Below, piece by piece: positions 15,639-47,064 of a stretch of 52,957 nt of DNA. The position numbers were made by a program, and so were the translations under genes. The notes under the pieces were generated by a model that did not search any database, was not told where the DNA came from, and worked only from the letters and a program-made list of their open reading frames with translations. Each line of letters starts with the position of its first letter. The first letter of the stretch is position 1. The DNA comes from Dolichospermum sp. ST_sed8. GTDB taxonomy: Bacteria; Cyanobacteriota; Cyanobacteriia; Cyanobacteriales; Nostocaceae. The stretch spans positions 1 to 52,957 of the forward strand of contig JAKOGY010000007.1 in NCBI GenBank assembly GCA_028658405.1, given 5' to 3'.

Positions 15639-16397
15639 TTATATACCCATACTGAAAATCAATTTTTCTACTAAAGAATGCCAATCTCCTGAAAATAAAG
15701 GCTCAGAAGCTAAAATGACCGAATTAACCATATTGAGAGCGTTATTCGACCAGTAAAGAGAAGGAGCGGTTGCATTAATGGCAAAACGACAAGCAACTAA
15801 TTGTTGTCCATTACTAACAATAATATTAGCTAATACCTTAATTTTATATGGTTTAGCTAATTTTATTAAAGTATTTAAAGTGTTTTGTAAAGCGGATTCT
15901 AAATTACCGTCTACTAAGGCTAATTCATTGATAAATAAAGCAAAAATATGTTCTGAATCAGTTGTCCCCTCAATTTTTTGATAAATTTCATCAGTTATAT
16001 AATTACGAATTGGTTTATATAAAGTTTGGCGAAAATTTTCAATAAAACCATTATGGGTAAAAAGCAAATTTCCATGGCTAAAAGGTTGACAATTACTTAA
16101 ACTAGTTTCTTGCCCCGGTGTTGCACTACGAATATGGGAGAGAAAACATTTACTTTCAATATATCTAGCGAGATCAGGTAAGTTAGTATCGCTCCAAATC
16201 GGTAAAATATTTTTATAAATAAATGGTTTAGGATCTTTTTGCAAATCATACCAACCAATTCCCACGCCATCAGCATTAACAGACGTAGTAACAGTTTCTT
16301 TAGGTTTATAGCTTTGGATATATAAAGAATGTTCCGGCTGATAAATTAATTTTTCTGGTTGGATGGGAGAACCCATATAAGCTAATAATCGGCACAT
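15639..16397 (-). CDS. egtC: EgtC-type class II glutamine amidotransferase (Ntn hydrolase)
   Basis: In the mycobacterial ergothioneine pathway EgtC removes glutamate from the gamma-glutamyl-hercynyl-cysteine sulfoxide made by EgtB. The protein begins MCRLLAYMG; after Met removal Cys2 is the Ntn nucleophile. LSHIRSAT, CQPFSHGNLLFTHNG and GTTDSEH are class II amidotransferase motifs. Its 252 residues fit EgtC. It is the last gene of the seven-gene minus-strand run, 25 bp behind the DUF427 gene. An EgtB-type gene lies two genes upstream, but no egtD or egtE is in the window, so its substrate might not be the ergothioneine intermediate. Confidence 0.8.
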   Translation of the reverse strand: MCRLLAYMGSPIQPEKLIYQPEHSLYIQSYKPKETVTTSVNADGVGIGWYDLQKDPKPFIYKNILPIWSDTNLPDLARYIESKCFLSHIRSATPGQETSLSNCQPFSHGNLLFTHNGFIENFRQTLYKPIRNYITDEIYQKIEGTTDSEHIFALFINELALVDGNLESALQNTLNTLIKLAKPYKIKVLANIIVSNGQQLVACRFAINATAPSLYWSNNALNMVNSVILASEPLFSGDWHSLVEKLIFSMGI

Positions 16398-16422
16398 AAA
16401 TTTGATTCACAAATAAATAATT

Positions 16423-16917
16423 TTACCAACCTCTCGTACCAGATTCTCCTTTAAAAGGCCCAACAATATCACGGGTAATCCAACCAGCATAAAAATCTCC
16501 TGCTTGTGGTGTAATCTTTTCCCCATCAACATAACAACCATCCATTGGTTGAGGATAGAAACCCAGATGACCTTTTAATTGCTCATAATCTGGAAAAATT
16601 TCTTCATAGTACCAGGCAACATTTAATGCAGTGCGATCGCCTACAGTCAGGTTGTAATAACTAGCCCATCCTTTCCATTCACAATAGGTTTTGCGATCGC
16701 TTTTAGTCAAATATTCCGTCTTAATATCTTGGATAGGAAGATAATAATTCGGCGGATGGCTAGTTTCTAAGGCTCTTTTAGCACAATGGGTATCAGTGAT
16801 GATCTCGCCATTAAATATAATTTGGATATGTTTGGTAGTATCTTCAACTCTTGGAGGTCGAGGATAATCCCAGACAGATTCTTGTCCGGGTTGAGGGGGA
16901 ATAGGTTGGGGTCTCAT
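16423..16917 (-). CDS. DUF427 domain protein
   Basis: The 164 residues match DUF427: VWDYPRPPRVEDTTK at the start, HIQIIFNGEIITDT, the strand pair with DRKTYCEWKGWASYYNL and VAWYYEEIFPDYEQLKGHLGFYP. The fold is a small beta barrel of unknown biochemical role. It lies between the EgtB-type and EgtC-type genes (49 and 25 bp gaps), so it probably works in the same pathway. Confidence 0.87.
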   Translation of the reverse strand: MRPQPIPPQPGQESVWDYPRPPRVEDTTKHIQIIFNGEIITDTHCAKRALETSHPPNYYLPIQDIKTEYLTKSDRKTYCEWKGWASYYNLTVGDRTALNVAWYYEEIFPDYEQLKGHLGFYPQPMDGCYVDGEKITPQAGDFYAGWITRDIVGPFKGESGTRGW

Positions 16918-16966
16918 TAATTTGTGGAATTCTTATTTTCTAGAAATATATAACATTTTTGGGACT

Positions 16967-18259
16967 TTAGACCGTTTCGGCTAAACGAATCCCACTAAAT
17001 TGCCATCGTGTCGCTGGGGAATAAAAATTGCGATAGCTAGAACGGATATGAGATTGAGAAGTGACACACGAACCTCCCCGTAAAACTAAGCGGTTGCACA
17101 TTAATTTTCCATTGTATTCGCCTATTATCCCTGCTTCTAGGCGATAACCTGGATAGGGCTGATGGGTGCTATTTGTCCATTCCCACACATCCCCAAATAG
17201 TTGGTCAGGGGAATCGCTGCCTGTTGCTGGGGTAGGGTGCAAAATTCCAGTTTCTAATAAGTTACCCCGGACTGGAACATTCGCGCTGGCAACTTCCCAT
17301 TCTGCTTCTGTTGGCAACCGTTTTCCTGCCCAGCGAGCATAGGCATCAGCTTCATAAAAGCTAACATGACAAACAGGTTCGTTTTCATTTAAGGGACGCA
17401 TTCCACCTAAAGTCATTAACCACCAATTACCATCAATTTTTTCCCAATATAAGGGGGCTTGCCAATTTTGGGAACGGGCGGCTGTCCAGCCTTCTGAAAG
17501 CCAATAATCGGGATTATTATAACCTCCTGCTTGGATAAACTCTAAATATTTGCCATTGGTGACTAATCGAGAACCAAAACGATATTCTTCTAGGTAAACA
17601 CGATGACGGGGTTGTTCGTTATCAAAGGCAAATCCCTGGCCATTGTTACCAATTTCATACAATTGGGCTGGATAATCTAGCCAATCTAGGGGTTTAACAA
17701 TAGATGCAGCCTTGGGAATAGGTAAATTGGGATTGTAAACCGGACGCAAGGGATTATTGCCAAAGATATGCTTAATATTGGTAAAGAGAAATTCTTGATG
17801 TTGTTGTTCGTGGTTGAGTCCGAGAATAATCAGGGATTCTAATTCTGAGTTTCCGATATTCTCAGCCATTAGTGACTGCATTGCCTCATCTACATAGGCA
17901 CGATAGCGATGGATTTCAGCAACAGTGGGACGGGATAAAGTTCCTCGTTGGGAAGCGGCAACTCTTTCTCCTAATGATTCGTAGTAGGAGTTCAACAAGT
18001 AATCATATTTGGGATGAAAAACCTTGTAGCCTTTGAGGTGAGGAACTAAAATAAAGACTTCAAAAAACCAAGCAGTATGGGCGAGATGCCATTTAAGGGG
18101 ACTGGCATCCGGCATACTTTGAACCACATAATCTTCAATTTCTAGGGGTTGACAAATTTGTTCGCTAGTTTGGCGAACTTGTTGGTATTTATCTCCCAAA
18201 AATAAAGTTTTTGGAGGTTCTGTAGAAAAGATAGTATTTAACATAAAATTTTTAGCCAT
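16967..18259 (-). CDS. egtB: EgtB-type non-heme iron sulfoxide synthase
   Basis: EgtB enzymes join a thiol (Cys or gamma-Glu-Cys) to C2 of the imidazole of N-alpha-trimethylhistidine, using O2. The N-terminal DinB-like domain carries the expected iron ligands His58 (KWHLAHTAWF), His150 and His154 (NHEQQHQEF). The C-terminal formylglycine-generating-enzyme-like domain has RLPTEAEWEVA, FGDVWEWTNS, VLRGGSC and FSGIRLA. The 430 residues are full length. It sits 18 bp behind the SAM methyltransferase gene. EgtD, which makes trimethylhistidine, is not present nearby; either it is elsewhere or this enzyme takes another imidazole or amine from the cluster (inference). Confidence 0.88.
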   Translation of the reverse strand: MAKNFMLNTIFSTEPPKTLFLGDKYQQVRQTSEQICQPLEIEDYVVQSMPDASPLKWHLAHTAWFFEVFILVPHLKGYKVFHPKYDYLLNSYYESLGERVAASQRGTLSRPTVAEIHRYRAYVDEAMQSLMAENIGNSELESLIILGLNHEQQHQEFLFTNIKHIFGNNPLRPVYNPNLPIPKAASIVKPLDWLDYPAQLYEIGNNGQGFAFDNEQPRHRVYLEEYRFGSRLVTNGKYLEFIQAGGYNNPDYWLSEGWTAARSQNWQAPLYWEKIDGNWWLMTLGGMRPLNENEPVCHVSFYEADAYARWAGKRLPTEAEWEVASANVPVRGNLLETGILHPTPATGSDSPDQLFGDVWEWTNSTHQPYPGYRLEAGIIGEYNGKLMCNRLVLRGGSCVTSQSHIRSSYRNFYSPATRWQFSGIRLAETV

Positions 18260-18277
18260 GTAAAACTTTTGTTTAAT

Positions 18278-18901
18278 TCAGAGCGAGATTTGATATACCC
18301 AAGTTTGTAAATAAAGATCAGGTTGTCCTTGAGGTTCAGCCTGATATTTTTCACCCAGTTCGGTTAATTGCCATTTGCCTTGTGTTTCTAAGTCTGTCAT
18401 TTTCTCTTTAAAATCGCTGCTTTCGTAGAAGTCAGGACGCAGGGTAAAAATAATGTATCCTGTTGGTTTAGTAACCCGAATTAGCTCATCAAAAGAACTA
18501 CTGGGAGCGTGTCCATAGGTAAATACGCCACAAGCGGTAACAGCATTAAAAGCATCATTAGGAAAGTCTAAAGGTTCACCTAATATCATTTGGTGTAACT
18601 CTGTGTAAACATTTTTCTTTTGTGCTTCGGCCAGCATTCCTTGAGAAAGGTCTATTCCTATTAAATTAGAATAGCCTTCTTTGTGAAGCGATTGACCCAT
18701 GATACCTGTCCCCACTCCAGCATCTAAAATTTGGGCATTTTTAGGGACATACTTAATAGTTAAATCCACGATAGGTTCGCGCTGAGGACGACCAAAGTTT
18801 TCGGTTAAATCCCGTTCGTAATCTTCAGCCCATTGGTTATAGCGTTGAGCTAATTCTTCATTATTCTGTGAACTATAGACCCATTGAATTTTATCTGACA
18901 T
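18278..18901 (-). CDS. Class I SAM-dependent methyltransferase
   Basis: A 207-residue Rossmann methyltransferase. Motif I is ILDAGVGTG (about residues 58-66), with IGIDLSQGMLAEA after it, then DAFNAVTACGVFTYGHAP and GYIIFTLRPDFY. It resembles the METTL27 (WBSCR27)-like group, with LAQRYNQWAEDYERDL before the SAM fold. It is not EgtD, which is about 320 residues with a different fold arrangement. It lies 26 bp behind the HD gene and 18 bp before the EgtB-type gene. A role in N-methylating the cluster product is attractive but unproven. Confidence 0.85.
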   Translation of the reverse strand: MSDKIQWVYSSQNNEELAQRYNQWAEDYERDLTENFGRPQREPIVDLTIKYVPKNAQILDAGVGTGIMGQSLHKEGYSNLIGIDLSQGMLAEAQKKNVYTELHQMILGEPLDFPNDAFNAVTACGVFTYGHAPSSSFDELIRVTKPTGYIIFTLRPDFYESSDFKEKMTDLETQGKWQLTELGEKYQAEPQGQPDLYLQTWVYQISL

Positions 18902-18927
18902 ATTAATTATTAATTATCAACTTTTAG

Positions 18928-19488
18928 TTAACTGATACATTTTACCTTTTGATCAAACATACTTTCAACCATTGGCACAAAAACTGATAAAGGTAAGGTA
19001 TCATAGTTAGGGTCAAAAGAGATTTGATCCCACATTTTACAGAACCGAATTGTCTGCTCAAAAGCTGGATGTTTTTGAAGTTGTTCACCTTTGTTTTGAT
19101 CTAATGCTACTTGATGTATGTAAGTGTCACTCTGTAATATTCCATGATATTGTACCATCCAGGCGTTTTCTGAAGATATATAGGGGCGTAATATAGCTGC
19201 TGCAAATTCGCCGTGGTTGACAGGAGCTAGAAGTTCACCGATATCATGTAGTAAAGCACAAACAATTGTTTCTTGATCACTGCCATCACGCAATGCTCTG
19301 GTTGCTGTTTGTAGTGAATGCTCTAATTGATCTACACGATAACCCATGTAATGTCCCCGCAAATCAAGAAGGGCTTCAATTATGGATTTTGCTAAACCTT
19401 TTATGTGATCTTCAAAGCAATTATCTATAATTTTCAATTCTTCTTCAGTAGCGAGATCGGCTCTAGTAAAATTGACGATTCTGTTCAT
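18928..19488 (-). CDS. HD-domain protein, PhnZ/TmpB-like candidate di-iron oxygenase
   Basis: The 186 residues align by eye with PhnZ, an HD-fold mixed-valent di-iron oxygenase. MGYRVDQLEHSLQTA matches IGEAINQLEHSLQCA of PhnZ (recalled). All six metal ligands are in place: His57, His81-Asp82 (LLHDIGE), His92 (NHGEF), His115 (VQYHGI) and Asp154 (KMWDQ). Tyr47 matches PhnZ Tyr24, but the substrate-contacting Glu27 of PhnZ is Tyr50 here, so the substrate should differ from hydroxyphosphonates. A plain phosphohydrolase is the alternative. The gene is 26 bp before the methyltransferase gene and 264 bp behind the dioxygenase gene; TmpA/TmpB-type enzyme pairs show the same dioxygenase plus HD pairing. 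Confidence 0.75.
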   Translation of the reverse strand: MNRIVNFTRADLATEEELKIIDNCFEDHIKGLAKSIIEALLDLRGHYMGYRVDQLEHSLQTATRALRDGSDQETIVCALLHDIGELLAPVNHGEFAAAILRPYISSENAWMVQYHGILQSDTYIHQVALDQNKGEQLQKHPAFEQTIRFCKMWDQISFDPNYDTLPLSVFVPMVESMFDQKVKCIS

Positions 19489-19516
19489 TTGAATTTAACT
19501 CCAATTTACAAAAGAA

Positions 19517-19600
19517 GGGAACAGGGAATAGGGAACAGGGAATAGGGAACAGGGAATAGGGAACAGGGAATAGGGAATAGGGAACAGGGAATAGGGAACA
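19517..19600. repeat. Twelve tandem 7-base units (GGGAACA / GGGAATA) inside the cluster
   Basis: 84 bp of alternating GGGAACA and GGGAATA units occupy the 264-bp gap between the dioxygenase and HD genes. Complementary GTTCCCTGTT units recur at about 19721-19743. This is the STRR class also seen at 42103-42142. The expansion probably widened a once short intergenic gap. Confidence 0.9.
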
Positions 19601-19694
19601 GATAAGAAACTAAAGTTTCAGAGTTTAAACCTCAGTCAAAAAAAGATGTTTTTAAAAGATGCGTAGCCTGAAAAAACAGTGTCATTATTTCAAT

Positions 19695-19720
19695 CTCATG
19701 TTTTTAAACATGAGTTTTTT
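19695..19720 (+). terminator. Hairpin plus T6, plus-strand orientation
   Basis: CTCATGTTT pairs with AAACATGAG across TT and is followed by TTTTTT at 19715-19720, the layout of an intrinsic terminator for plus-strand transcripts. Read on the minus strand, the direction of all flanking genes, no U run follows the hairpin, so read-through of the operon is not obviously blocked. Confidence 0.4.
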
Positions 19721-19752
19721 CTGTTCCCTGTTGCCTGTTCCCTTTGAATTAA

Positions 19753-20880
19753 TTATTTGATTGATGCGGATTGAAAGTTTTTCAATCCGTGAAAATAATC
19801 CCACTCAATAAATGCAACTTCTAAGTGTCTGTTTCCTGAACGAGAATCAAATTTTTTCCGTCCATGTAATAATTGGGAATTATCTATAAATAGACAATCT
19901 CCTTTTTGCAGACGATAGTAAGTTTGATAATCAGGATTATTTAAGTATTTTAAAAAGGTATAAAATGCCTCATAGAAAATCTTTGTTTTTTCAAATGGTA
20001 AGTCTATGTCAATATTTTTATGAGAGAAATAAATAGCGGTTACTTCATTTTGATTATTCAATTCTATAATAGGTCTTGTTCGACAAAATAAATAATTCCA
20101 TCTAACAATTAATTGCTTAAACTTTACAGGAGTATTAGTTAATACCTGAAAATAATCAGGATGTACTTTTTTGAAATCTTCTACTAATCGAAGCCCATCA
20201 ACAATGATTGAATCACCACCAGAAACATTATTTTCTACACAATATTGAATTTGAACTACAGGAGGGGCATTGAGATATGTCAAATCTGTATGAGGTGATA
20301 AGCCATGACCTGCTGATGACATTGATAGATCCGAAGCTAAATTCGATGAATTGGGTACGGGTTTTACAGTAGAGAAATTTCCGAATTTAGCCAATTCATA
20401 AATTGGCCCAATGGACAACAGTAAAGATTCTAGGTTTTCCATCGGAACATTTTGCAGTACGACAAAACCTAATTTATTAAGGAGATCACGCCACGTTTTC
20501 TGATTATCTGCACAATAGTTAGGCCATTCTATTTTCCGCGCTTCTAACCACTTTTGATCCCATGTTATCCTCTGGTTAGATAATTCAGGTTTCGGTGTTG
20601 GATCATAGGCATGATCGAGTAACCAAGAGATGGGAAATATACTTTGATGTCCAGATAATTCATCCCAATTAATTAATAGTTGATTATTCTGTAACTGCAC
20701 AGAGAAAGGTTTACTATCAGGGGTAAGATATTCAACATTAGACATTTTCTGTTGAGAACTGGGATCGTAGCATTTAGGACATAAACAATGGTCCCGTAAC
20801 CAAAGGTAATGAAATCGCTGCCCTTGAAGCACTAAAAATGCATCCTGAAGATCAATTATCGGGGATTTGATACTAATCAT
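19753..20880 (-). CDS. Gamma-butyrobetaine-hydroxylase-like Fe(II)/2-oxoglutarate dioxygenase
   Basis: A 375-residue TauD/TfdA-superfamily enzyme with the extra N-terminal zinc domain (DUF971-like) of the BBOX/trimethyllysine hydroxylase family: Cys32, Cys34 and Cys37 in RDHCLCPKC, and His90 in LLDHAYDP. The catalytic domain has the iron triad His197-x-Asp199 (SPHTDLTY) and His339 (LLHGRKKFD); Arg351 (NRHLE) probably binds 2-oxoglutarate. Relatives hydroxylate betaines such as gamma-butyrobetaine (to carnitine) or trimethylaminoethylphosphonate (TmpA). Its ATG is only 9 bp behind the NRPS-PKS stop, so the two are almost certainly co-transcribed and the enzyme is probably a tailoring hydroxylase for the synthase product. 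Confidence 0.87.
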   Translation of the reverse strand: MISIKSPIIDLQDAFLVLQGQRFHYLWLRDHCLCPKCYDPSSQQKMSNVEYLTPDSKPFSVQLQNNQLLINWDELSGHQSIFPISWLLDHAYDPTPKPELSNQRITWDQKWLEARKIEWPNYCADNQKTWRDLLNKLGFVVLQNVPMENLESLLLSIGPIYELAKFGNFSTVKPVPNSSNLASDLSMSSAGHGLSPHTDLTYLNAPPVVQIQYCVENNVSGGDSIIVDGLRLVEDFKKVHPDYFQVLTNTPVKFKQLIVRWNYLFCRTRPIIELNNQNEVTAIYFSHKNIDIDLPFEKTKIFYEAFYTFLKYLNNPDYQTYYRLQKGDCLFIDNSQLLHGRKKFDSRSGNRHLEVAFIEWDYFHGLKNFQSASIK

Positions 20881-20889
20881 ATTGTTGCA

Positions 20890-23800
20890 CTAAAGAAAAT
20901 ACTTTGATAGTTTTTGAGCTAAAAGCTGAACATTTGGTTCTGTCATCATAGTGAAATGATTTCCGTTCACAATTTGGCAATCTAAAGGTTGTCCAGAAAG
21001 CTGATTCCATCCCCAAGTAGGATCTTTTGCAGTCATGGCTGCATCAGGAAGAAAATCATCTTCTGGGTGAACTTCACTAGCTCGCAAGAGGATAATTTGA
21101 TTATTATAACCCGTTTTTGGCACATATTGAATCATTGCTTGTAGATTGGCTTTATAAACTCGGAACAGTCGTTTTAGTTCAGTTTCACCAAACACCAAAT
21201 CTATCTTTTTGAATGCCAAGAATAGAAGGTTTATTTGTTCATCTACACTGAAAGAATCGAGATTTGATGGTAAGTCTAAGGTTTGTGCAAAGGAGCGTTC
21301 AAACATCTTCGCCAGACTGATTATATATTTACTATCATGCCAATGAATGGCATCTTTTTCCTGTTCAGCAACGGGTACTTGAATATCCATAATTGCCAAC
21401 AGGGAAACCTCCTCTCCTTGATTTTGTAACTGGGTGGCAATTTCAAAAGCCACTTTACCTCCAAAGGAATGACCCCCGATAAAATAGGGTCCATGAGGCT
21501 GTATTTGCTGCATTGCTTGGATATGATGGGCGGCAATATCAGCCATGTTTGTGTAGGTTTCTATGTCTTCATCCAAACCGAGCGATCGCAGTCCATAAAA
21601 TGGTTGTTCATTGCCTAGATAACGGGCTAGGGGTTCGAGTTCAAACACATTGCCTAAAATTCCAGGGAGGCAGAAAAAGGGCGGTTTAGTTCCCTGAGAT
21701 TGAATTGTAACTAAGGTGGGATAATAGTTACCATTTGTATTAGATAAGGTTGAAGTTAATTCTTTTAAACCCAAAATCTCACTGGCCAGATAATCCACCA
21801 GAGTTTCTAGGGTTGGATAGTTAAATAGCAGGGTTGATGGCAAATTGCAGCCTAAATTCGTTTGTAGATAACTCCTCAATTCGATCGCCATCAAGGAGTC
21901 TAATCCCAAATCAAACAACCGTTGTCCTAACTTGATCTGCTCCGGTTTCTTCAACCCTAAAGTTTTCCCTACTACTGATCGAACATGAGAAGTTAGCACC
22001 CCTCGACGCGCTGATTTAGGTATTTTCTCTAACTCTAACTGGAATGATATTTTTGATTCGGGTTCTATAGAAACATCTGGCATTAAATATTCATAGAAAG
22101 GAGGCACTTGCTGCAAGGTATTCAGCCATTTTGCCCAATTCGTCATGGGTAACACAGCAACTTGAGTAACATCCTGTGTCATTAATGTGCCAAGCACTTG
22201 AAAACCGTCTGAATAGTCAATAAAATCAATTCCTTGAGCCGCTAATCGCATTTGTTGATCTTGGCTAAGTTTAGCTGCCATTCCCACTTCACTCCAAGCG
22301 CCCCAGTTGATAGCTAGAGTAGATAAACCTAAACTCTCACGGTAATGAGCCAGTGTATCAATGAAAGTATTGGCGGCGATATAGTTTCCTTGTCCCAATA
22401 GTCCTGTAATGGATGCAGCAGAAGAGAAACAAACAAAGAAGTCTAGGGGTAAATCTTTGGTTAAATGATGGAGATTCCAAGAACCTGCCACTTTAGAAGC
22501 CATGACCTTCTCAAATCGTTGCCAAGATTGTTGTTGGAGAGTCCCATCATCTAACACCCCCGCAGCATGAATAATGCCTCGCAGGGGTTGGTGACAAGCT
22601 GTTAATAGGTGAGCAACATCCTCTTGCTGAGAAACATCAGCTTTAACAACTAAAACCTCCGCCCCCTTTTGTGCTAACTGCTGTACCTCCTCCCTGAGAT
22701 TAGGGGAAGATATGCCTTGACGACTGGCTAAAACGAGATGTTTTGCTCCCTGTTCAATCAGCCATTGAGCCGCTTTAATGCCTAAACCGCCTAAACCACC
22801 TGTAATTAAGTAACTACCCTCTCCTTGAACTAAATTTGAGGTTGAGGATGGGGATTCGGGCATAGTCAGAACAACTTTACCAATATGTTTCGCTCCTGCC
22901 ATAAAGCGGAAGGCATCAATGACATTTTCCAGGGGGAATACTTTCATTGGCAAGGGTTTTAGACTACCATCGGCCAAACCGGATAGGAGTTGAGTAAATA
23001 GGGAGGGCAATAAGTCTGGTTTTTTCTGATATTCTTCTCCTAAATCAAAGGCAAAATAAGAGGCATCGGGTCGAAGTTCCTGCACTTTCTGATCGTCCCA
23101 AATATCAATTTTTCCTAGTTCTATAAACCGACCATTTTGGGCGAGTACCTCGAAACTTTTAGGGATAAATTCTTTATTAAAGCTGTTGAGAACGATATCA
23201 ACCCCTTGCCCATCGGTAAGTTGCTTGATTTCTTCAGCAAAGTCCCAGGTGCGGGAGTTCATCAGATGATTAACCCCCATGGCTTTGAGAAAATCCCATT
23301 TTGACGGACTGGCTGTGCCAAAAATTTCTAGTCCTGCTCGTTGTGCCAATTGTACGGCGGCTTGACCTACTCCTCCGGCGGCAGAATGAATTAAAACGCG
23401 ATCGCCCCTTTGAATCTTAGCTAATTCGTGGAGGGCATAGTAAGCGGTTAAAAAGGCGGCAGGAATGGTCGCGGCTTCTGCAAAACTGAAATTTTCGGGT
23501 TTGGGGGCAACTTGAGAGGCAGAAACGGTGACAAAACTGGCTAAACTGCCAGTGGCTAAAGCCATAACGCGATCGCCTATCTGGAAATTAACCACATTTT
23601 TGCCCACAGCCACGATTTCCCCAGCACATTCAAACCCAAAGGGAATCTCACTAGGATTTGTGATGCCGACTTCTTGTTCATAATAGTCTTGGAGCATTCC
23701 CAAGGCATTGAGAACATCTCGGAAATTTAAACCAGCAGCCCGGACTGCAATTTCTACTTCGTTGGCTTGCGGTTGACGGCGTATTAGGGGGGCTAATGCT

Positions 23801-26800
23801 AAATTTTCTAAAATGCCGTAGTTGTCTATTTTCAACCGCACGGGAGTCGTCGCCAGTTGGGGATTTATTTTGGTTTGAGGATTAAATTGCTTGAGCCGAG
23901 GAACATAGCGGATTCCTTGACGATAGGCGATTTGGTCTTCATAATCATCAGCAAACAATAATTCATCTAGGATTATTTCCACAGATGATATAGTTTCTGC
24001 TGCTGATGGATCTAGGTCTAAACGCAGACATCGCAGTTCGGGATATTCGAGGGAAATGGCTTGACCTAAACCCCATAAAGGACTCTGTTGCACCTGTAAT
24101 GGGGCTGAACCGATCGCTCTTGAGCCTTGGGTAATTAGGCACAAGCGGGGGGCTATTCTCGCCTCTGAGAGTGCCTGAACTAGATGTAAGGAACTACCAG
24201 AACCCAGAAGTTGCGATCGCTCTAAGGCAACCAGAGAACAGTCTGACATTGGTTCAATTCCCCACAGATGCACCACTCCCTGCAATGGAAAGGGGTGATC
24301 TTTTAGTAATTGTTGAAACTGTTCAGGCTTTGCTGGATTAATTTGATAGTATTCTGCAATAAAGTTCTGTTTTGATGCTAATTTTTGATAATGGGCATCG
24401 GCAATAACCAAGGTACAGCGATGTCCTTGCTCAAAAAGATGACGGGCTAAATTCTCACCCATTCCCTGAGTATCAGCCAAAATTAACCAATAACCAGTTT
24501 TGCTTCCTTGAGTTCGGGATATCTTATCAGTTGGTTGCCAAACCACTTCATATAAGTGATTTTCTAAATTTGAGCGACGATTAAACTGGGTTTGATGAGC
24601 TTGTCGCATAGATAACCCAGAAACCCCGGCGACTAAATTACCCTCGTCGTCGAAGAGATTGACTTCCACCTTTAAGGTTTCGCTTTCAGGAGTTTTTCCC
24701 TCCACAAGTCTTACATAACTCCACAAATGACGACTCGGCGGATGATCAACCCGTAACTGGTCTAAAATGACAGGTAAATAAGTCCCTTTTGGTAAAATCT
24801 CCCCTAAAATATGCAGACTGGCATCGAGAATTGCGGGATGTAATTGATATTTCTCCCAGTCTTGCCAAACCATTTCAGGGACTCGAATCCGACCAAGTAT
24901 CGCCCCCTCACCTTTCCAGAGTTGTTCTACCCCTTGAAAACTTGCTCCAAAGTCAATATGCTGCGATCGCCTTCCTTGATAAAATGTTTCGCCAGATATC
25001 TGTTCACTACATTGTTGTTGCCAAGTTGCTAACTCAAATTTCCAGGGTTGAGAGTCTACTTTCTTAGATAGCAAAATTTGACCGCAAACATGGCGGATCC
25101 AAGTTATTTTTTGAGTTTTTTCCGTGGTCGAAACGAGACTAAAAATCTCAAATCCATAGATATTTGTCCCTTTAGGCTTCAATACCAATTGTAGGCTGTT
25201 GAGTTCTTCTTTCTCTGCCGACAGAACTAGCGGCTGTTCAATAAATACTTCTTCTAAGATGAGATTTTTCCCTGGGAACGCCTTTTTCCCGGCAGCTAAG
25301 GCCATTTCTAAATAAGCTGTTAAAGGAACAATGGCCTGATCAAAAATCCGATGATCAGCCAAATAGGTCAAATTGGACAAATGTTGACTGATTTCTCCTG
25401 AGAAACGAATTTCCTCAGTTCCAGCTAACTGCAACTGTTGACCGAGTAAGGGATGGCTGTCAGTGGTGATGGATGAAGTATAACCCTCAATTTTCTTAGG
25501 TTCGAGCCAATGGCGTTGTCGTTCAAAAGGATAGGTCGGTAAATGTTCTCGACGACGGGGGTAATCTTGATCAAAACCTAACCAGTTAACCGCAATACCT
25601 TGCAAATAGAGTTGGGACAAACTGCTTAAGAGTTGTTGCCAGTCATCTTGAGGCGATTTTAAACTCGGCAACCATAACCCCTCATGGTCGGGTAAACATT
25701 GACGACCCATCCCCAATAAAACAGGTTTGGGACCAATTTCTAGCCAAATATCTATATTCTGCTCCTGCAAACTCTCCATCCCCTCAGCAAATCGTACAGG
25801 TTGGTAAATATGACGACACCAATAATCAGCCGTCGTCACTTCTGTGCTGGCGATTTGACCTGTAACATTGGAAACTAAGGGAATTTTAGGGACAGAAAAG
25901 CTGATTTCTTGGGCAATGCGTTTAAAATCTGCCAGTATCGGCTTCATTAACGGTGAGTGGAAAGCATGGGAAACAGTTAATGGCTTAATTTTGATTCCCT
26001 TCCCTTCTAAGTCATCACAGATCAGCTTAATGATCTCACTTTTACCAGAAATGACCACACTTTCGGAGGTATTAATCGCAGCTAGGGAAACCGATTCAGA
26101 GTAGGGGGCAACTATTGGGCGAATTTCCTCCTCAGCAGCCAATAATGCCACCATTTTTCCGTCTTGGGGCAAAGTCTGCATCAACCTTCCCCTTTCGGCG
26201 ATCAATTTCAATCCATCTTCCAGACTGAAAACTCCTGCCACACAAGCGGCTACATATTCCCCTACACTATGACCAATTACAAAATCAGGTTCAATGCCCC
26301 AAGATTTCCACAACTCAAACAAAGCATATTCTAGGGCAAATAAAGCAGGTTGAGTGTACGCAGTTTCATGGATTAACTCATCCCCCGTTGACTCCTGAAA
26401 ATTCTGCCCGGAATGGGGATATAACACCTCAATTAACGGTTTTTTCAGGTAGGAGCGCAGAATTTCGTCACAGTGATCAAGGGTTTGGCGAAATGTTGGC
26501 TGAGTTTTGTAGAGTTGGTATCCCATTCCTAGATATTGAGAACCTTGACCAGTGAAAAGAAAAGCAATTTTTGAGGATTGGTCTTGACTTTTAACCACAT
26601 TTGTGGAAATTTGCTCAAAATCTGCCAATTGTTCCCGTAAATGTCCTTTAGATTCAGCTAAAACTGTCAAACGATGGTCAAAGTGCTTGCGTCCGGTATT
26701 GGCAGTAAAACAAATATCAGCTAAAAGTGTCTCTCTATCTGCATCCAAATAACCGAGATAACGCTGTGTCAATTCTCGCAAAGCCGATGGTGTTTTCGCG

Positions 26801-29800
26801 GATAGGGTCAAAATCTGACAATAACGCTCATTTAATGCCTCCTTGGTTTTTAGGGGTGCTTCTTCTAACACTAAATGAACATTTGTTCCCCCCATTCCAA
26901 ATGAACTTACCCCTGCACGACGAGGACGCTCTTTCGTTTTCCAGGGGGATAGTTGGGTATTAACGAAAAAGGGACTATTTTCAAAATCAATGTGGGGATT
27001 TGGCTTTTTAAAGTGCAGACTAGCAGGAATTTGTTGATATTTCAGGGCTAATACGGTTTTAATCAGTCCAGCAATGCCGGCTGCATTAGCTAGATGTCCT
27101 ATATTTGTTTTCACAGATCCAATGGCACAATAACCATTTCCTGGGCTGGTTTCTCGAAATGCTTGGGTTAATCCAGCAATTTCAATGGGATCTCCTAAAT
27201 TAGTTCCCGTACCGTGGGTTTCTATATAATCAATGGTGCTGGCATCAACTCCTGCTTTTGCTAATGCTTGGGATACAACTGATGCTTGAGCTTCCAGATT
27301 GGGTGCAGCATAACTTACTTTCTGCCAACCATCATTATTAACGGATGAACCTTTAATTACTGCATAGATATGATCATGATCAGCGATCGCATCAGCCAAT
27401 CTTTTTAAAACAACAATTCCCGCACCATTCCCAAATACTGCACCTTCCGCATCAGCATCAAAGGCTTTACAATGACCGTCTGGGGAAAATATGCCATTGT
27501 TTTGGGCTATATATCCTGTTTTTTGAGGAACTCGAATTGATACTCCTCCCGCTAAAGCCAGTTCACATTCTCCCCTGAGTAAGCTATTAATTGCTTGATG
27601 AACTGCCACCAGAGAGGTAGAGCAAGCCGTTTGAATATTAATACTCGGACCTGTAAGATTAAGTTTATAAGAAACCCTTGTCGGTAAAAAGTCTTTTTCC
27701 TGTCCCATCGTTAGCTGCACATCAGCCATAGTTTCCAGAAAGGAACGATTATAGGCATTAATGTGGGGATAGACATTATTAATAAAATAAGTATTCATCC
27801 CTGCACCCCCATAGACTGCAACGCATCCTGGATAACTCTGGGGATTATAACCAGCATCTTCTAAAGCTTCCCAAGCACATTCTAAAAAGATTCGCTGTTG
27901 CGGATCGAGAATTTCGGCTTCTTTTGGGCTATAGCCGAAGAAATCAGCGTCAAAATACTCAATATCATCTAAAATCCCCCCAGCTTTCACATAATTAGGG
28001 TGATTGAGCCAATCAGGATTATTCGGGTTCAATTCTGGATTATCAAAAAAGTCAATAGATTCGATGCCATGACAAAGATTATCCCAAAATATTTGCATAT
28101 TTTTCGCCCCTGGAAAACGCCCCGCCATACCGATAATAGCAATTGATTCTGTGGGAATTGGTGCTAGTTTTTGTTGATATTTATTAGGGGATTTTTCAGT
28201 TTTATCTTGTTCTAAATATTCCGTTAAACTGCTAATAGTTGGATATTGAAATAGTTTGACAACGGGAATATCAAGATTTAGTCTTTGTTTAAGTTGCCGA
28301 TTCAATTGAATTAGGAGTAAAGAATTGCCTCCTAATTCAAAAAAGTTATCTTGAGTCCCAACTATTTCTAACTGTAATAAATCTTGCCAAATTTCTGCAA
28401 TCTTTTTTTCTAGTTCCTTAGTCGCCAAAACTAATGTTGTCTTTAATTCTGGTCGTTTCTTTTCTGGTTTAGGTAAGGCTTGGCGATTTATTTTTCCATT
28501 GGCATTTAAGGGCATTTTTTCCAACGTCACCCAAGTTGTCGGTATCATATATTCGGGTAAACGAGATTTTAAATACTCTCTTAGTTTGGGTTCTAATTGT
28601 CTAGCAATCTTGCTATGTAAAGGATTATTTGTATATTCTTGATAGGATAGATTCTGGATTTTTCCATGCTGTTGTAAATTGGTCTTACCTCCAATATTCT
28701 TGGGTTTAAAAGTAAGATGATAACAAGCTTTCAATTCAGACCAATGAATGATGATTTTTCCATCAACTTCTATCCCCAAATTCCACCAGTCTTCAGGTTC
28801 AATTCCCTTAACTTCTATTGATTCTATTTTTTTCCTTAATTCTTGGACATTTTCGATACTTTTATCTGTGATTAAATCTAACAAATAAATTTCTTTTATT
28901 AACCGAGGATTGGGAATATTTTTGATTTCTATAACTTCGTTTTTGTTGTCTAAAATTAGCTTTTTAACTGATTGAAAATCTAAACTATTTTGTTGCCAGT
29001 CTAAGCAATAAGTTGGATTAAGAATCACATTATTTTGATTAACGTGCAAAAATACATCATAACGAAACTTACTTAATTCATTATGATAACGACCTCGTTT
29101 TAACTGTATTTCGACACAACTAATCTTAGGTAAACATTCCTGTAAAGCTAAGAAGAAATCAGGAGAAATAACTAAATCTTCCTCATTTCTGATTCTAGTT
29201 TGAATTCGTTGACGTAGCTGTTCTATTGATAAATTATCATCAGCTTGATGTAATTGTACCGAAGTATGGAAAACCTCTAATAAATCTCGATTACGGATAT
29301 CCCCAACAAAAACAAAACCCGAATCCGAAATAACATTTACTGCTTTCTCCAAAACCTCAAATAAATAATCTCCGCTAGGAAAATGTTGGGTAACGGAATT
29401 AATTACTACTCCATCAAAAGAATGATTTTCAATTCCACTGAAATTACTCGCTTCTCTTTGAGACAATTTAACCTGATTTTGATCACATTTTATAGCATTA
29501 AGATGACGATCAATATAATCTAAAGCTTCCTGAGAAATATCCGTTCCTAAATATAAATCACAAACAGGTCCGATCCTAAACAGTAACATACCTGTACCGC
29601 AACCTAATTCTAAAACACGCTGAGGATTTTGACTTAAGATGCGATCGCTTGTTTGTTTCACCCAATCTTGCATTTCCGCTTCAGGAATCGCTTTTCCGTC
29701 ATAACTATTATTCCAACCGATTAAATTTAAAGTAGGATCACCAACGTCATTCGACTGACTATAAATAGCATTATCAACTTCTTGCCATTGTGCAACTTGT

Positions 29801-31251
29801 TCTTTTTGTACTTCTTCATCTATGTCATTCTTAGGAACAACATAAGCGACCAAACGTTTATCTCCTAAATCTTCAGTTAAGGCAATAATCGCTACTTGAT
29901 TTACTTGGGGATGTTGACTTAAAACAGCTTCAATTTCCCCTAATTCCAGACGAAAACCTCGAATTTTAACTTGATTATCCACCCGATCTATAAATTCAAT
30001 ATTGCCATCAGGTAAATACTTCGCCAAATCTCCCGTTTTATAGATAAACTCTTGAGTCTTATTTTGACTCCCTACAAAAGGATTTACAATAAACTTTTCT
30101 CTCGTTAATTCAGGACGATGCAAATACCCCTTAGTAATTCCCAAACCACCGATACAAATTTCGCCAATACTCCCCATCGAAACTGGCTTGAAATCAGAAT
30201 CTAAAATATATATTTGACTATTACTTATAGCACGACCAATGGGAACTTTAGCATAAGAATCTTCAGATTGACATTGATAAACTGTACTCCATACAGTTGC
30301 TTCAGTAGGACCATATTCATTATAAAGAGATGTATTACTAAGATTATTATAATGAAGAGTAACTAAATCTAGAGGACAAACTTCCCCCGCAACAATAACA
30401 ACCTGTAAACTAGCCAGTTTATGGGAATCATCTTGAGTTAATAACAATTTCCACAAAGAAGGCAAACATAACAAATGAGAGATATTATGCTGACTAATTA
30501 AATCAATTATATCTAATGGATTTGTTTGAAAATTAGACAATGGTAACAATAATTTCCCACCAACACACAATGTCCAAAAAATCCCAGCAACTGAACTATC
30601 AAAACCAAATGAAGATAACAATAAATAACTATTTAACGATTCTTGATAATAATTAATTCTAGCTTGAGTAGAATGGATTAGATTACCATGAGTTACCATA
30701 ACTCCTTTAGGTTTACCTGTAGAACCTGATGTGTATATAATATAAGCCAGGGTTTCCGAGGTGGTAATATTAACTATATTTTCAGTTTTTTGACATTCAA
30801 TATTTTTCCAGTCTGTATCTAAACAAATTATTTCCCCATCATATTCCAAAAAATTATCAACTAGCTTTTTTTGAGTTAACAAAATCTTGATTCTTGAATC
30901 CCCTATCATATATGATAAACGTTCCAAGGGATAGCTTGGATCTAATGGCACATAAGCACCACTCGCTTTAAGAATACCTAATATTCCCACTATCATTTCC
31001 AAAGACCGTTCCACGCAAATTCCCACCAAAAATTCAGCTTTTGTTGTTTGATATATCGAATAAACCTTCCTTTGTTCTGATCGTAAATAATCTGCTAATT
31101 GATTAGCTTTTTGATCAAGTTCTTGATAAGTTAATTGGTCTTGTCCAAAAACTACTGCTATTGCTTCTGGTGTTTTTGCGACCTGTTTTTCAAATAACTG
31201 ATGAATGCTACTAATGTGTGACACAGTATGATTACCTTTTATACTCAACAA
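20890..31251 (-). CDS. Hybrid NRPS-PKS, A-nMT-PCP-KS-AT-DH-ER-KR-ACP-TE
   Basis: One 3453-residue protein forms a complete two-module line. Domains: adenylation (about 14-480, end at 900-925; YTSGSTGKPKG at 173-183), N-methyltransferase inserted before A10 (about 500-740; VLELGCGTG 546-554), PCP (Ser977), KS (Cys1210, His1346, His1386), AT (Ser1662; HAFH 1762-1765, malonyl type), DH (His1967, Asp2143), KR structural part, ER (AAGGVGQAAVQ near 2625), KR (GGLGGLG 2818-2824, Tyr2957, LDD 2900-2902), ACP (Ser3119) and TE (Ser3262, Asp3289, His3432). There is no condensation domain, so the A module loads the chain. All catalytic residues checked are present. Expected product: an N-methyl gamma-amino acid, possibly a lactam. 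The A-pocket reads D-S-A-C-I-A-E-V-W-K; substrate unassigned. The start is a TTG with GAGG 10 bases upstream; a GTG at 31224 is the alternative. Confidence 0.95.
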   Translation of the reverse strand: MLSIKGNHTVSHISSIHQLFEKQVAKTPEAIAVVFGQDQLTYQELDQKANQLADYLRSEQRKVYSIYQTTKAEFLVGICVERSLEMIVGILGILKASGAYVPLDPSYPLERLSYMIGDSRIKILLTQKKLVDNFLEYDGEIICLDTDWKNIECQKTENIVNITTSETLAYIIYTSGSTGKPKGVMVTHGNLIHSTQARINYYQESLNSYLLLSSFGFDSSVAGIFWTLCVGGKLLLPLSNFQTNPLDIIDLISQHNISHLLCLPSLWKLLLTQDDSHKLASLQVVIVAGEVCPLDLVTLHYNNLSNTSLYNEYGPTEATVWSTVYQCQSEDSYAKVPIGRAISNSQIYILDSDFKPVSMGSIGEICIGGLGITKGYLHRPELTREKFIVNPFVGSQNKTQEFIYKTGDLAKYLPDGNIEFIDRVDNQVKIRGFRLELGEIEAVLSQHPQVNQVAIIALTEDLGDKRLVAYVVPKNDIDEEVQKEQVAQWQEVDNAIYSQSNDVGDPTLNLIGWNNSYDGKAIPEAEMQDWVKQTSDRILSQNPQRVLELGCGTGMLLFRIGPVCDLYLGTDISQEALDYIDRHLNAIKCDQNQVKLSQREASNFSGIENHSFDGVVINSVTQHFPSGDYLFEVLEKAVNVISDSGFVFVGDIRNRDLLEVFHTSVQLHQADDNLSIEQLRQRIQTRIRNEEDLVISPDFFLALQECLPKISCVEIQLKRGRYHNELSKFRYDVFLHVNQNNVILNPTYCLDWQQNSLDFQSVKKLILDNKNEVIEIKNIPNPRLIKEIYLLDLITDKSIENVQELRKKIESIEVKGIEPEDWWNLGIEVDGKIIIHWSELKACYHLTFKPKNIGGKTNLQQHGKIQNLSYQEYTNNPLHSKIARQLEPKLREYLKSRLPEYMIPTTWVTLEKMPLNANGKINRQALPKPEKKRPELKTTLVLATKELEKKIAEIWQDLLQLEIVGTQDNFFELGGNSLLLIQLNRQLKQRLNLDIPVVKLFQYPTISSLTEYLEQDKTEKSPNKYQQKLAPIPTESIAIIGMAGRFPGAKNMQIFWDNLCHGIESIDFFDNPELNPNNPDWLNHPNYVKAGGILDDIEYFDADFFGYSPKEAEILDPQQRIFLECAWEALEDAGYNPQSYPGCVAVYGGAGMNTYFINNVYPHINAYNRSFLETMADVQLTMGQEKDFLPTRVSYKLNLTGPSINIQTACSTSLVAVHQAINSLLRGECELALAGGVSIRVPQKTGYIAQNNGIFSPDGHCKAFDADAEGAVFGNGAGIVVLKRLADAIADHDHIYAVIKGSSVNNDGWQKVSYAAPNLEAQASVVSQALAKAGVDASTIDYIETHGTGTNLGDPIEIAGLTQAFRETSPGNGYCAIGSVKTNIGHLANAAGIAGLIKTVLALKYQQIPASLHFKKPNPHIDFENSPFFVNTQLSPWKTKERPRRAGVSSFGMGGTNVHLVLEEAPLKTKEALNERYCQILTLSAKTPSALRELTQRYLGYLDADRETLLADICFTANTGRKHFDHRLTVLAESKGHLREQLADFEQISTNVVKSQDQSSKIAFLFTGQGSQYLGMGYQLYKTQPTFRQTLDHCDEILRSYLKKPLIEVLYPHSGQNFQESTGDELIHETAYTQPALFALEYALFELWKSWGIEPDFVIGHSVGEYVAACVAGVFSLEDGLKLIAERGRLMQTLPQDGKMVALLAAEEEIRPIVAPYSESVSLAAINTSESVVISGKSEIIKLICDDLEGKGIKIKPLTVSHAFHSPLMKPILADFKRIAQEISFSVPKIPLVSNVTGQIASTEVTTADYWCRHIYQPVRFAEGMESLQEQNIDIWLEIGPKPVLLGMGRQCLPDHEGLWLPSLKSPQDDWQQLLSSLSQLYLQGIAVNWLGFDQDYPRRREHLPTYPFERQRHWLEPKKIEGYTSSITTDSHPLLGQQLQLAGTEEIRFSGEISQHLSNLTYLADHRIFDQAIVPLTAYLEMALAAGKKAFPGKNLILEEVFIEQPLVLSAEKEELNSLQLVLKPKGTNIYGFEIFSLVSTTEKTQKITWIRHVCGQILLSKKVDSQPWKFELATWQQQCSEQISGETFYQGRRSQHIDFGASFQGVEQLWKGEGAILGRIRVPEMVWQDWEKYQLHPAILDASLHILGEILPKGTYLPVILDQLRVDHPPSRHLWSYVRLVEGKTPESETLKVEVNLFDDEGNLVAGVSGLSMRQAHQTQFNRRSNLENHLYEVVWQPTDKISRTQGSKTGYWLILADTQGMGENLARHLFEQGHRCTLVIADAHYQKLASKQNFIAEYYQINPAKPEQFQQLLKDHPFPLQGVVHLWGIEPMSDCSLVALERSQLLGSGSSLHLVQALSEARIAPRLCLITQGSRAIGSAPLQVQQSPLWGLGQAISLEYPELRCLRLDLDPSAAETISSVEIILDELLFADDYEDQIAYRQGIRYVPRLKQFNPQTKINPQLATTPVRLKIDNYGILENLALAPLIRRQPQANEVEIAVRAAGLNFRDVLNALGMLQDYYEQEVGITNPSEIPFGFECAGEIVAVGKNVVNFQIGDRVMALATGSLASFVTVSASQVAPKPENFSFAEAATIPAAFLTAYYALHELAKIQRGDRVLIHSAAGGVGQAAVQLAQRAGLEIFGTASPSKWDFLKAMGVNHLMNSRTWDFAEEIKQLTDGQGVDIVLNSFNKEFIPKSFEVLAQNGRFIELGKIDIWDDQKVQELRPDASYFAFDLGEEYQKKPDLLPSLFTQLLSGLADGSLKPLPMKVFPLENVIDAFRFMAGAKHIGKVVLTMPESPSSTSNLVQGEGSYLITGGLGGLGIKAAQWLIEQGAKHLVLASRQGISSPNLREEVQQLAQKGAEVLVVKADVSQQEDVAHLLTACHQPLRGIIHAAGVLDDGTLQQQSWQRFEKVMASKVAGSWNLHHLTKDLPLDFFVCFSSAASITGLLGQGNYIAANTFIDTLAHYRESLGLSTLAINWGAWSEVGMAAKLSQDQQMRLAAQGIDFIDYSDGFQVLGTLMTQDVTQVAVLPMTNWAKWLNTLQQVPPFYEYLMPDVSIEPESKISFQLELEKIPKSARRGVLTSHVRSVVGKTLGLKKPEQIKLGQRLFDLGLDSLMAIELRSYLQTNLGCNLPSTLLFNYPTLETLVDYLASEILGLKELTSTLSNTNGNYYPTLVTIQSQGTKPPFFCLPGILGNVFELEPLARYLGNEQPFYGLRSLGLDEDIETYTNMADIAAHHIQAMQQIQPHGPYFIGGHSFGGKVAFEIATQLQNQGEEVSLLAIMDIQVPVAEQEKDAIHWHDSKYIISLAKMFERSFAQTLDLPSNLDSFSVDEQINLLFLAFKKIDLVFGETELKRLFRVYKANLQAMIQYVPKTGYNNQIILLRASEVHPEDDFLPDAAMTAKDPTWGWNQLSGQPLDCQIVNGNHFTMMTEPNVQLLAQKLSKYFL

Positions 31252-31718: not shown

Positions 31719-32297
31719 CTACCAAATTTTCCCCATATTCAAAACAAACCCAGGTAAAACAGGATCACAATTAACAGTGTCAGGATTTTCTAAACATTCC
31801 TCTATTTGTCCAGGACGATAAATATAAACTCGGCGATTTTTGCGGTCAATTAATAAACCTAATTGTATTTCTGGTTCTTGCATATATTCTTGCATTTTCT
31901 CTTTTAAAGGCTGCAAATTATCAGAAGATGATCTTAATTCAATCACAAAATCAGGACAAATAGGAGCAAACTTTTCTTGTTGTGCTGATGTAAGTTTATT
32001 CCACCTTGATAATTTTATCCAAGAAGCATCAGGAGAACGTTTTGCACCTGTAGAAAGTGTAAATCCTGTGCTTGATGAAAATGCTATTCCTGTTCCATCT
32101 TCATCTGTCCAATTCATTAATTGTTGGATGATTCTACCTTCTCTATTTCCTGTTTCTGAACCTGCGGGTGACATAATTGATATATCTCCAAATTGATTTC
32201 TCTCAATGCGTAAATCACGATTTAGTTGACAAAATTCAAAAAACTGATCATCTGTCATTGATGATGGCATTTGTAACATTAAGGGAGATGAAAGCAT
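31719..32297 (-). CDS. Uma2 family endonuclease, third tandem copy
   Basis: A 192-residue PD-(D/E)XK-fold protein of the Uma2/DUF820 family, hugely expanded in cyanobacteria. RSPDASWIK and CPDFVIELRS carry the acidic active-site residues and LGLLIDRKNRRVYIYRPGQ follows. Biological role is unknown; a nuclease activity is assumed from the fold. It is about nine-tenths identical to the copy just upstream (32323-32901), with differences concentrated in residues 54-75. Confidence 0.88.
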   Translation of the reverse strand: MLSSPLMLQMPSSMTDDQFFEFCQLNRDLRIERNQFGDISIMSPAGSETGNREGRIIQQLMNWTDEDGTGIAFSSSTGFTLSTGAKRSPDASWIKLSRWNKLTSAQQEKFAPICPDFVIELRSSSDNLQPLKEKMQEYMQEPEIQLGLLIDRKNRRVYIYRPGQIEECLENPDTVNCDPVLPGFVLNMGKIW

Positions 32298-32322
32298 AAT
32301 GATTTCCTTCCATTTATTTGGT

Positions 32323-32901
32323 TTACCAAATTTTACTCATATTCAAAACAAACCCAGGTAAAACAGGATCACAATTAACAGTATCAGGATTTTCCAAACA
32401 TTCCTCTATTTGTCCAGGACGATAAATATAAACTCGGCGATTTTTGCGGTCAATTAATAAACCTAATTTTATTTCTGGTTCTTGCATATATTCCTGCATT
32501 TTCTCTTTTAAAGGCTGCAAATTATCAGAAAATGACCTTAATTCAATCACAAAATCAGGACAAATAGGAGCAAACTTTTTTTGTTGTGCTGATATAAGTT
32601 TATTCCATCTTGCTAACTTTATCCAGGAAGCATCAGGAGAGCGTATTGCACCTGTGGAAAGTGTAAATCCCGCACTGGAGGAAAAGCCAATTCCTGTACC
32701 ATTTTCATCTGACCAAACTGCTAACTGTCCAATAATATGAAATTCTCGATTTCCTGTTTCTGAACCCGCAGGTGACATAATTGATATATCTCCAAATTGA
32801 TTTCTCTCAATGCGTAAATCACGGTTTTCTTGACAGAAATCAAAAAACTGATCATCTGTCATTGATGATGGCATTTGTAATATTAAGGGAGATGAAAGCA
32901 T
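32323..32901 (-). CDS. Uma2 family endonuclease, second tandem copy
   Basis: 192 residues with the same motifs as its neighbours: RSPDASWIK, PDFVIELRS and IDRKNRRVYIYRP. It lies 25 bp from each flanking copy, and the short spacers are themselves similar (GTTTACCAAATTTT before each downstream copy), so the duplicated unit includes the intergenic sequence. The central variable segment reads FHIIGQLAVWSDENGTG in this copy. Confidence 0.88.
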   Translation of the reverse strand: MLSSPLILQMPSSMTDDQFFDFCQENRDLRIERNQFGDISIMSPAGSETGNREFHIIGQLAVWSDENGTGIGFSSSAGFTLSTGAIRSPDASWIKLARWNKLISAQQKKFAPICPDFVIELRSFSDNLQPLKEKMQEYMQEPEIKLGLLIDRKNRRVYIYRPGQIEECLENPDTVNCDPVLPGFVLNMSKIW

Positions 32902-32926
32902 AATAATTTCCTTGGATTGATTTTGT

Positions 32927-33511: not shown

Positions 33512-33681
33512 GGTTATTTCCTCCATCTGAAATTAGAATCAATTTTATCACAAACTATAGCTGAAGTTAGTTAATATAGAATTACCAACGATTGAGCAAT
33601 CATCAGCAGAATTAAACGCAGCCTTCGAGAAAATTCCCTATCAGAGATAAAATATAGAAATTGAATCAAGGATAAATAAAT

Positions 33682-47047: not shown

Positions 47048-47064
47048 TGATTTATTTTACCTAC

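Follow-up and report, generated by a model that had tools for sequence, protein, structure and literature searches.

The gene row analyzed here raises the question of what could be made by an assembly-line synthetase encoded together with iron oxygenases, a methyltransferase and ergothioneine-type proteins. The row lies in a contig of Dolichospermum sp. ST_sed8 (GCA_028658405.1, JAKOGY010000007.1), of which a stretch of 52,957 nucleotides, referred to as the window, was analyzed. Seven intact ORFs, all on the minus strand, span positions 15639–31251, as had been read from the letters alone (the sequence-only reading). The spacing of mostly 9–49 bp given in that reading is true of five of the six gaps (9, 264, 26, 18, 49 and 25 bp from the synthetase to EgtC), the exception being the 264 bp between the TauD-family and HD-domain genes. 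Its family assignments were confirmed with Pfam and NCBIfam for six of the proteins; for the HD protein the profile match was partial and below cut-off, and the likeness to TmpB and PhnZ came from an AlphaFold (AF2) model.

Below the EgtC gene, a gap of 595 bp is followed by a PIN-domain gene, and above the synthetase lie three tandem Uma2-family genes (31719–33526, minus strand). These look like the natural borders of the cluster. No tRNAs and no Rfam families over the gathering score were found in the window, and a promoter and terminator scan gave no excess over shuffles (69 versus 62.4, sd 7.0; 12 versus 15.6, sd 4.3). Elsewhere in the window, an AAA_21 ATPase and DUF4276 gene pair (9650–11514, plus strand) matches the PADLOC candidate defence models HEC-01A and HEC-01B (564 and 280 bits), and an AAA_15 ATPase gene adjoins a long pentapeptide-repeat gene (45740–47844, minus strand).

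In the reading favoured here, to which we give a probability of roughly 0.6, the cluster makes an N-methylated gamma-amino acid that derives from histidine and bears sulfur of the ergothioneine type. The first gene (20890–31251, minus strand; 3453 aa, TTG start as called) encodes a hybrid NRPS-PKS, assigned from its Pfam domains, amino acid code and active-site motifs. The domain order is A-nMT-PCP-KS-AT-DH-ER-KR-ACP-TE, with no condensation domain detected by Pfam, so that an A-PCP module is joined to KS-AT-ACP plus a release domain, the arrangement expected of a hybrid NRPS-PKS. The active-site motifs are present, including those of the KR, DH and ER domains, and the AT is of the malonyl type (HAFH). 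Judging from this domain order, the A domain would load histidine, the nMT domain would methylate the alpha-nitrogen, KS-AT would add one malonyl unit that KR-DH-ER would reduce fully, and the TE should release 4-(methylamino)-5-(imidazol-4-yl)pentanoic acid.

The A domain code, read in ten columns after alignment with two homologues, is DSALIAEVWK and matches a published histidine string. The columns were chosen so that the A domain of a Moorena-clade genome (G406) reads DILQLGMIWK, and the window domain was then read there; the glycine reading of G406 is therefore by construction and is no independent control. Only position 278 depends on the choice of columns, being L or C according to which motif proline is the anchor. 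The alternative anchor gives DSACIAEVWK, which keeps nine of the ten letters of the histidine string, nine of the ten positions being independent of the choice. In a survey of 2051 A domains, DSALIAEVWK is named in the paragraph on histidine, which lists four signatures for 14 histidine-activating domains, and DILQLGMIWK is given as a glycine string (PMC12283262). By its code, the window A domain should load histidine. Because only 14 of the 2051 surveyed domains activate this amino acid, it is unlikely that a histidine A domain came to lie next to EgtB by chance. The code therefore ties the synthetase to EgtB, as it provides an imidazole on which EgtB could act; the known substrate of EgtB is trimethyl-histidine.

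The second gene (19753–20880, minus strand) encodes an Fe(II)/2-oxoglutarate dioxygenase of the TauD family resembling TmpA and gamma-butyrobetaine hydroxylase (PF02668, with GBBH-like_N PF06155), which would hydroxylate the chain, probably at the site used by BBOX. Its nearest solved structure is TmpA (6npb, 162.7 bits), followed by human BBOX1 (131.9 bits), both named for quaternary ammonium substrates, and the iron triad H-D-H is kept in all eight aligned proteins. As in carnitine biosynthesis, the predicted substrate is a gamma-amino acid. Unlike gamma-butyrobetaine hydroxylase itself, the window protein scored below the NCBIfam cut-off for BBOX (TIGR02409, 216.0 versus 414.75), and it was also below those for TmpA (222.7 versus 400) and trimethyllysine dioxygenase. 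The aromatic cage of BBOX, which we take to be Y177/W181/Y194/Y366, corresponds to F/S/M/F in the window protein, i.e. two of the four aromatics, and to Y, S, L and Y in the proteins of G406 and Moorena sp. SIO3H5. Among the eight aligned proteins the full four-position set was found only in BBOX1 and TmpA. The alignment indicates that the cage is remodelled across the whole window/Moorena group, so that a trimethylammonium substrate for this enzyme is uncertain.

The third gene (18928–19488, minus strand) encodes an HD-domain protein with the predicted fold of PhnZ/TmpB-like mixed-valent diiron oxygenases, which would catalyze some further oxidation. The Phn-HD, TmpB and PhnZ profiles (TIGR03276/NF049941) matched residues 37–93 only and far below cut-off (best 50.0 versus 214.6; TmpB equivalog 42.9 versus 300). 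The ten best solved-structure matches of the AF2 model, which was built from four sequences with a mean pLDDT of 69.8 and is poor in the first 30 residues, are TmpB and PhnZ. Residues H57, H81 and D82 align with the PhnZ ligands H34/H58/D59 and are invariant in four aligned sequences, as are H92, H115 and D154. If, as we assume, a PhnZ/MIOX-type diiron oxygenase has six metal ligands, the latter three are proposed as the remaining ones. When a collection of contigs was scanned with the HD alignment, 80 of 128 relatives were retained, most of them from uncultured Alphaproteobacteria. Since 78 of these 80 had no TauD protein of the window type (E ≤ 1e-5) in the available flank, some flanks being short, the scan tells little of the function of the HD protein; the same collection gave no matches to the TauD protein alone. 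The role of the HD protein is the weakest part of the pathway account.

TmpA/TmpB and PhnY/PhnZ are oxygenase pairs of phosphonate catabolism, and the cluster likewise places a BBOX-family Fe/2OG enzyme next to a protein of TmpB/PhnZ fold. If the two proteins acted as TmpA and TmpB do, the chain would be hydroxylated and then oxidatively cleaved to a shortened acid. The fold matches of the HD model, TmpA as the nearest relative of the TauD protein, and the order TauD then HD, which is shared by the window, a Moorena genome (G358), Moorena sp. SIO3H5 and G406, all point in this direction. It would, however, be wasteful to cut a chain that has just been built, and the short, low-scoring profile match of the HD protein argues against a TmpB function. 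Both proteins differ from the phosphonate pairs in falling below the NCBIfam cut-offs and in being tied to an assembly line. Cleavage is considered rather unlikely, and it is compatible with the favoured route up to the last step.

The fourth gene (18278–18901, minus strand) encodes a small SAM methyltransferase (MT; PF08241), probably an amine N-methyltransferase, which would add further N-methyl groups to give the dimethyl form or the betaine. The protein is 57% identical to an MT encoded beside TauD in G406, and homologues at E ≤ 1e-25 occur in 8 of 386 cyanobacterial genomes, the source genome included. Neighbourhoods were inspected for some of these matches. The MT relative in G406:C3 adjoins an Orn/Lys/Arg-type decarboxylase with TauD, that in G211:C43 a PLP decarboxylase, and that in G318:C25 an aspartate decarboxylase, the MT and TauD copies at the last locus both being broken by in-frame stops. 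The theme shared by these loci, an amine source beside a methyltransferase, supports, without proving, the assignment of the window protein as an amine N-methyltransferase. At G211:C43 (L267) an octopine-dehydrogenase-like protein is also encoded beside the MT relative and the decarboxylase, and this locus is perhaps another small betaine pathway. At G318:C25 (L023 155–3099) the decarboxylase gene sits between the stop-carrying TauD and MT copies, and the locus reads as a decaying small pathway.

The neighbours of the MT relatives also bear on the release step. In an acyl chain bound to the TE, a secondary gamma-amine is able to close a ring, and the TE might thus form a gamma-lactam (5-imidazolylmethyl-N-methylpyrrolidinone), in which case tailoring would act on the ring and no betaine would arise. 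The reduced cage of the TauD protein is in line with such a product. The decarboxylases found beside MT relatives, however, are expected to make open-chain amines, and the quaternary ammonium substrates for which TmpA and BBOX1 are named also argue for an open chain. Lactam formation is considered very improbable.

A related set of genes in G406 (contig C5) consists of a synthetase, MT, sulfotransferase, SDR, second MT, TauD, HD and a CmcI-like methyltransferase. The synthetase domains are 45% (A), 48% (nMT), 67% (KS), 65% (AT), 53% (KR), 61% (ACP) and 55% (TE) identical to those of the window, and the single proteins 49% (TauD) and 55% (HD). Unlike the window synthetase, that of G406 has the glycine code, a partial C domain and no match to the window DH or ER, and its locus has the extra MT, sulfotransferase, SDR and CmcI-like genes and no EgtB, DUF427 or EgtC in the 34 kb examined. 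The domain comparison therefore indicates a similar machine that uses a different starter and reduces to a different level. With glycine and a KR only, the Moorena-clade synthetase would be suited to making a 3-hydroxy-4-(methylamino)butanoate of the carnitine type. From the TE onward, the gene order of G406 is repeated in Moorena sp. SIO3H5, where the A domain falls outside the stretch examined, and the similarity of the two loci is such that they are counted as one lineage.

In G358, a related synthetase is accompanied by a sulfotransferase-like gene, TauD and HD. The A domain code of this synthetase, VLWTWTYTIK, is without Asp235, and the domain should therefore not take an ordinary amino acid. 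Two TauD genes and, by eye, nadA/nadB/nadC-like genes lie nearby (L019/L020), and the starter is possibly of a pyridine type.

Strong homologues of TauD (E < 1e-40) were found in three of the 386 cyanobacterial genomes (the source genome, G000, together with G358 and G318), and 12 more had weak matches only. Full-length HD homologues were detected in four (G000, G358, G336 and G165); those of G336 and G165 have none of the remaining genes of the set as neighbours. At E ≤ 1e-20, TauD is present in 8 of the 20 genomes of the family of G358. Among ten TauD places there, a PKS is near three (L208, L210, where TauD lies at the contig end, and L214), an MT near three (L208, L217 and L220) and HD near one (L208).

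Chance adjacency of the first four genes was rejected because they recur in G406; this does not extend to the sulfur genes. Since a Moorena-clade genome has synthetase, MT, TauD and HD genes and no EgtB, DUF427 or EgtC nearby, the first four genes seem to form a cassette that recurs with variations, and the sulfur block looks like an addition found in the source genome alone. The sequence-only reading had proposed a methylated gamma-amino acid, and a coherent path to such an N-methylated product gains from this recurrence in G406 (and in the SIO3H5 stretch) and from the histidine-type A domain. Conserved co-occurrence of all seven families, which that reading named as a check, was not found elsewhere in the genomes searched. 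The genes of the first half of the cluster occur together in G406 and are variable over the ten TauD places. The EgtB-DUF427-EgtC half, whose absence beside the synthetase and dioxygenase in related genomes had been named as a sign of chance neighbours, is not conserved, as G406 has the first four genes without it. As this block accompanies the other four genes in the source genome only, it is without comparative support.

The fifth gene (16967–18259, minus strand) encodes a type II, Chloracidobacterium-like EgtB sulfoxide synthase (TIGR03440, 568.7 bits; cut-off 360), which probably forms an imidazole C-S bond. It is 56% identical to the Chloracidobacterium enzyme EgtB_Cth, and the Tyr93/Tyr94 pair and the putative histidine ligands are kept. 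Compared with 14 reference enzymes, 115 of 126 near-invariant positions are kept, so that the protein may still take hercynine. The 11 changes include F90L and R103A, near Tyr93/Tyr94 in the sequence, and F416Y, and are compatible with an altered substrate. The seventh gene (15639–16397, minus strand) encodes a class II glutamine amidotransferase family protein of the EgtC type (TIGR03442, 285.6 bits; cut-off 218.65), a probable gamma-glutamyl hydrolase that begins MCRLLAY and has the N-terminal cysteine. In the favoured route, EgtB would link the imidazole to cysteine or gamma-glutamylcysteine as a sulfoxide, EgtC would remove glutamate, and DUF427 or an unlinked lyase would finish the thiol. 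The Chloracidobacterium EgtB is described as preferring cysteine in passages of two papers (PMC10903977, PMC11993508). With such a preference EgtC would have no obvious job; finding EgtC in the cluster favours gamma-glutamylcysteine as the sulfur donor, and the EgtB type favours cysteine.

Type II EgtB (E ≤ 1e-60) is present in 43 of the 386 genomes, the source genome included. In 13 of the 42 other loci examined, EgtD is adjacent in 12 and DUF427 in two, and no match to EgtC, synthetase, TauD, HD or MT was found in these 13. Within the genus, the source is the only one of 16 genomes with type II EgtB, no match among the other 15 exceeding 99.7 bits. EgtC homologues (E ≤ 1e-20) occur in 65 of the 386 genomes and, in 17 of 19 loci examined, adjoin a different EgtB type that is 28–33% identical to the window protein. 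Type II EgtB and EgtC are found together in the source genome alone, compared with 7.2 genomes expected if independent (P = 0.0024 without correction for kinship, certainly a contributing factor). The sulfur block by itself in unrelated places, which the sequence-only reading had also regarded as evidence of chance adjacency, was not found; its EgtB and EgtC types have the separate neighbours just described.

EgtD (PF10017) is absent from the cluster, the sole match in the genome being on another contig (G000:C222), and the PLP-dependent C-S lyase EgtE was not detected among the seven genes with Pfam and NCBIfam. At G000:C222 the genome carries a separate egtB-egtD-DUF427 locus, and the window EgtB is therefore not its only one. 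The idea that the window holds the sole housekeeping ergothioneine locus was rejected on this ground. Compared with ergothioneine biosynthesis, the window appears to hold a second, mixed set, in which a type II EgtB without EgtD is combined with EgtC and a DUF427 paralogue, and which differs further in having a histidine-coded NRPS-PKS in the same gene row.

The DUF427 protein (sixth gene, 16423–16917, minus strand; PF04248) is 58% identical to its paralogue at G000:C222 (L062 12037–12531). DUF427 genes were found near egtB-egtD (stretches of ≤ 8 kb) in 8 of 13 other loci of the genus (L222–L233), which cover 13 of the 15 other genomes. C79 and C128 are invariant in ten aligned sequences, and a fold search (E ≤ 0.001) returned only four chains of 3djm, itself an uncharacterised DUF427 protein. 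The recurrent tie to egtB-egtD suggests that DUF427 is a candidate ergothioneine-related protein and hints at a family function. That it takes the missing lyase step is a guess from its neighbourhood.

The main rival of the favoured reading divides the cluster into two units: the synthetase, MT, TauD and HD would make a histidine-derived gamma-amino acid betaine, and EgtB, DUF427 and EgtC would only boost or vary the production of ergothioneine from hercynine that EgtD, encoded elsewhere, provides. The occurrence of the first unit without the second in G406, the near-invariant positions kept in EgtB, the egtD gene on another contig and the lack of a second example of the joined cluster are all consistent with this division. 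It is opposed by the histidine code of the synthetase, by the gap of only 18 bp between MT and EgtB on the same strand, by the egtB that the genome already has beside egtD, and by the absence of EgtD from a block whose EgtB type has EgtD alongside in 12 of 13 loci. Two independent units are regarded as unlikely.

Under the favoured reading, an uncleaved chain would yield a bis-homologue of ergothioneine, for which an [M+H]+ of 258.127 was computed (274.122 for the hydroxylated form). A wider proposal, held tentatively and at somewhat short of even odds, has three parts. Histidine would be N-methylated and extended by two carbons on the assembly line, and an EgtB turned to a new purpose would thiolate its imidazole, the result being bis-homo-ergothioneine whose chain resembles carnitine. 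The synthetase would belong to a wider cyanobacterial NRPS-PKS class, of which no description was found, whose members start from various amino acids and make betaines of gamma-amino acids. DUF427 would be a partner of EgtB chemistry that has been overlooked.

The C-S chemistry of the ergothioneine type has known substrates in histidine and its methylated derivatives, and every enzyme family of the cluster except DUF427 is already known in function. Searches of the open-licence part of PubMed Central, judged by title and abstract, showed no cluster of this kind, and no paper joining DUF427 and ergothioneine was found in the open-licence literature. As far as searched, a histidine assembly line joined to ergothioneine-type sulfur insertion has not been described there.

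For the cyanobacteria, the loci compared here point to a swappable gene set, in which an amine source is accompanied by an N-methyltransferase, a BBOX-like dioxygenase or both, and at times by an HD protein. If the enzymes of the window work as their sequences suggest, the product in Dolichospermum sp. ST_sed8 would be an extended analogue of the antioxidant ergothioneine. A polyketide-extending synthetase would then supply a sulfoxide synthase with its substrate, and this would be a route to new redox-active thiols.
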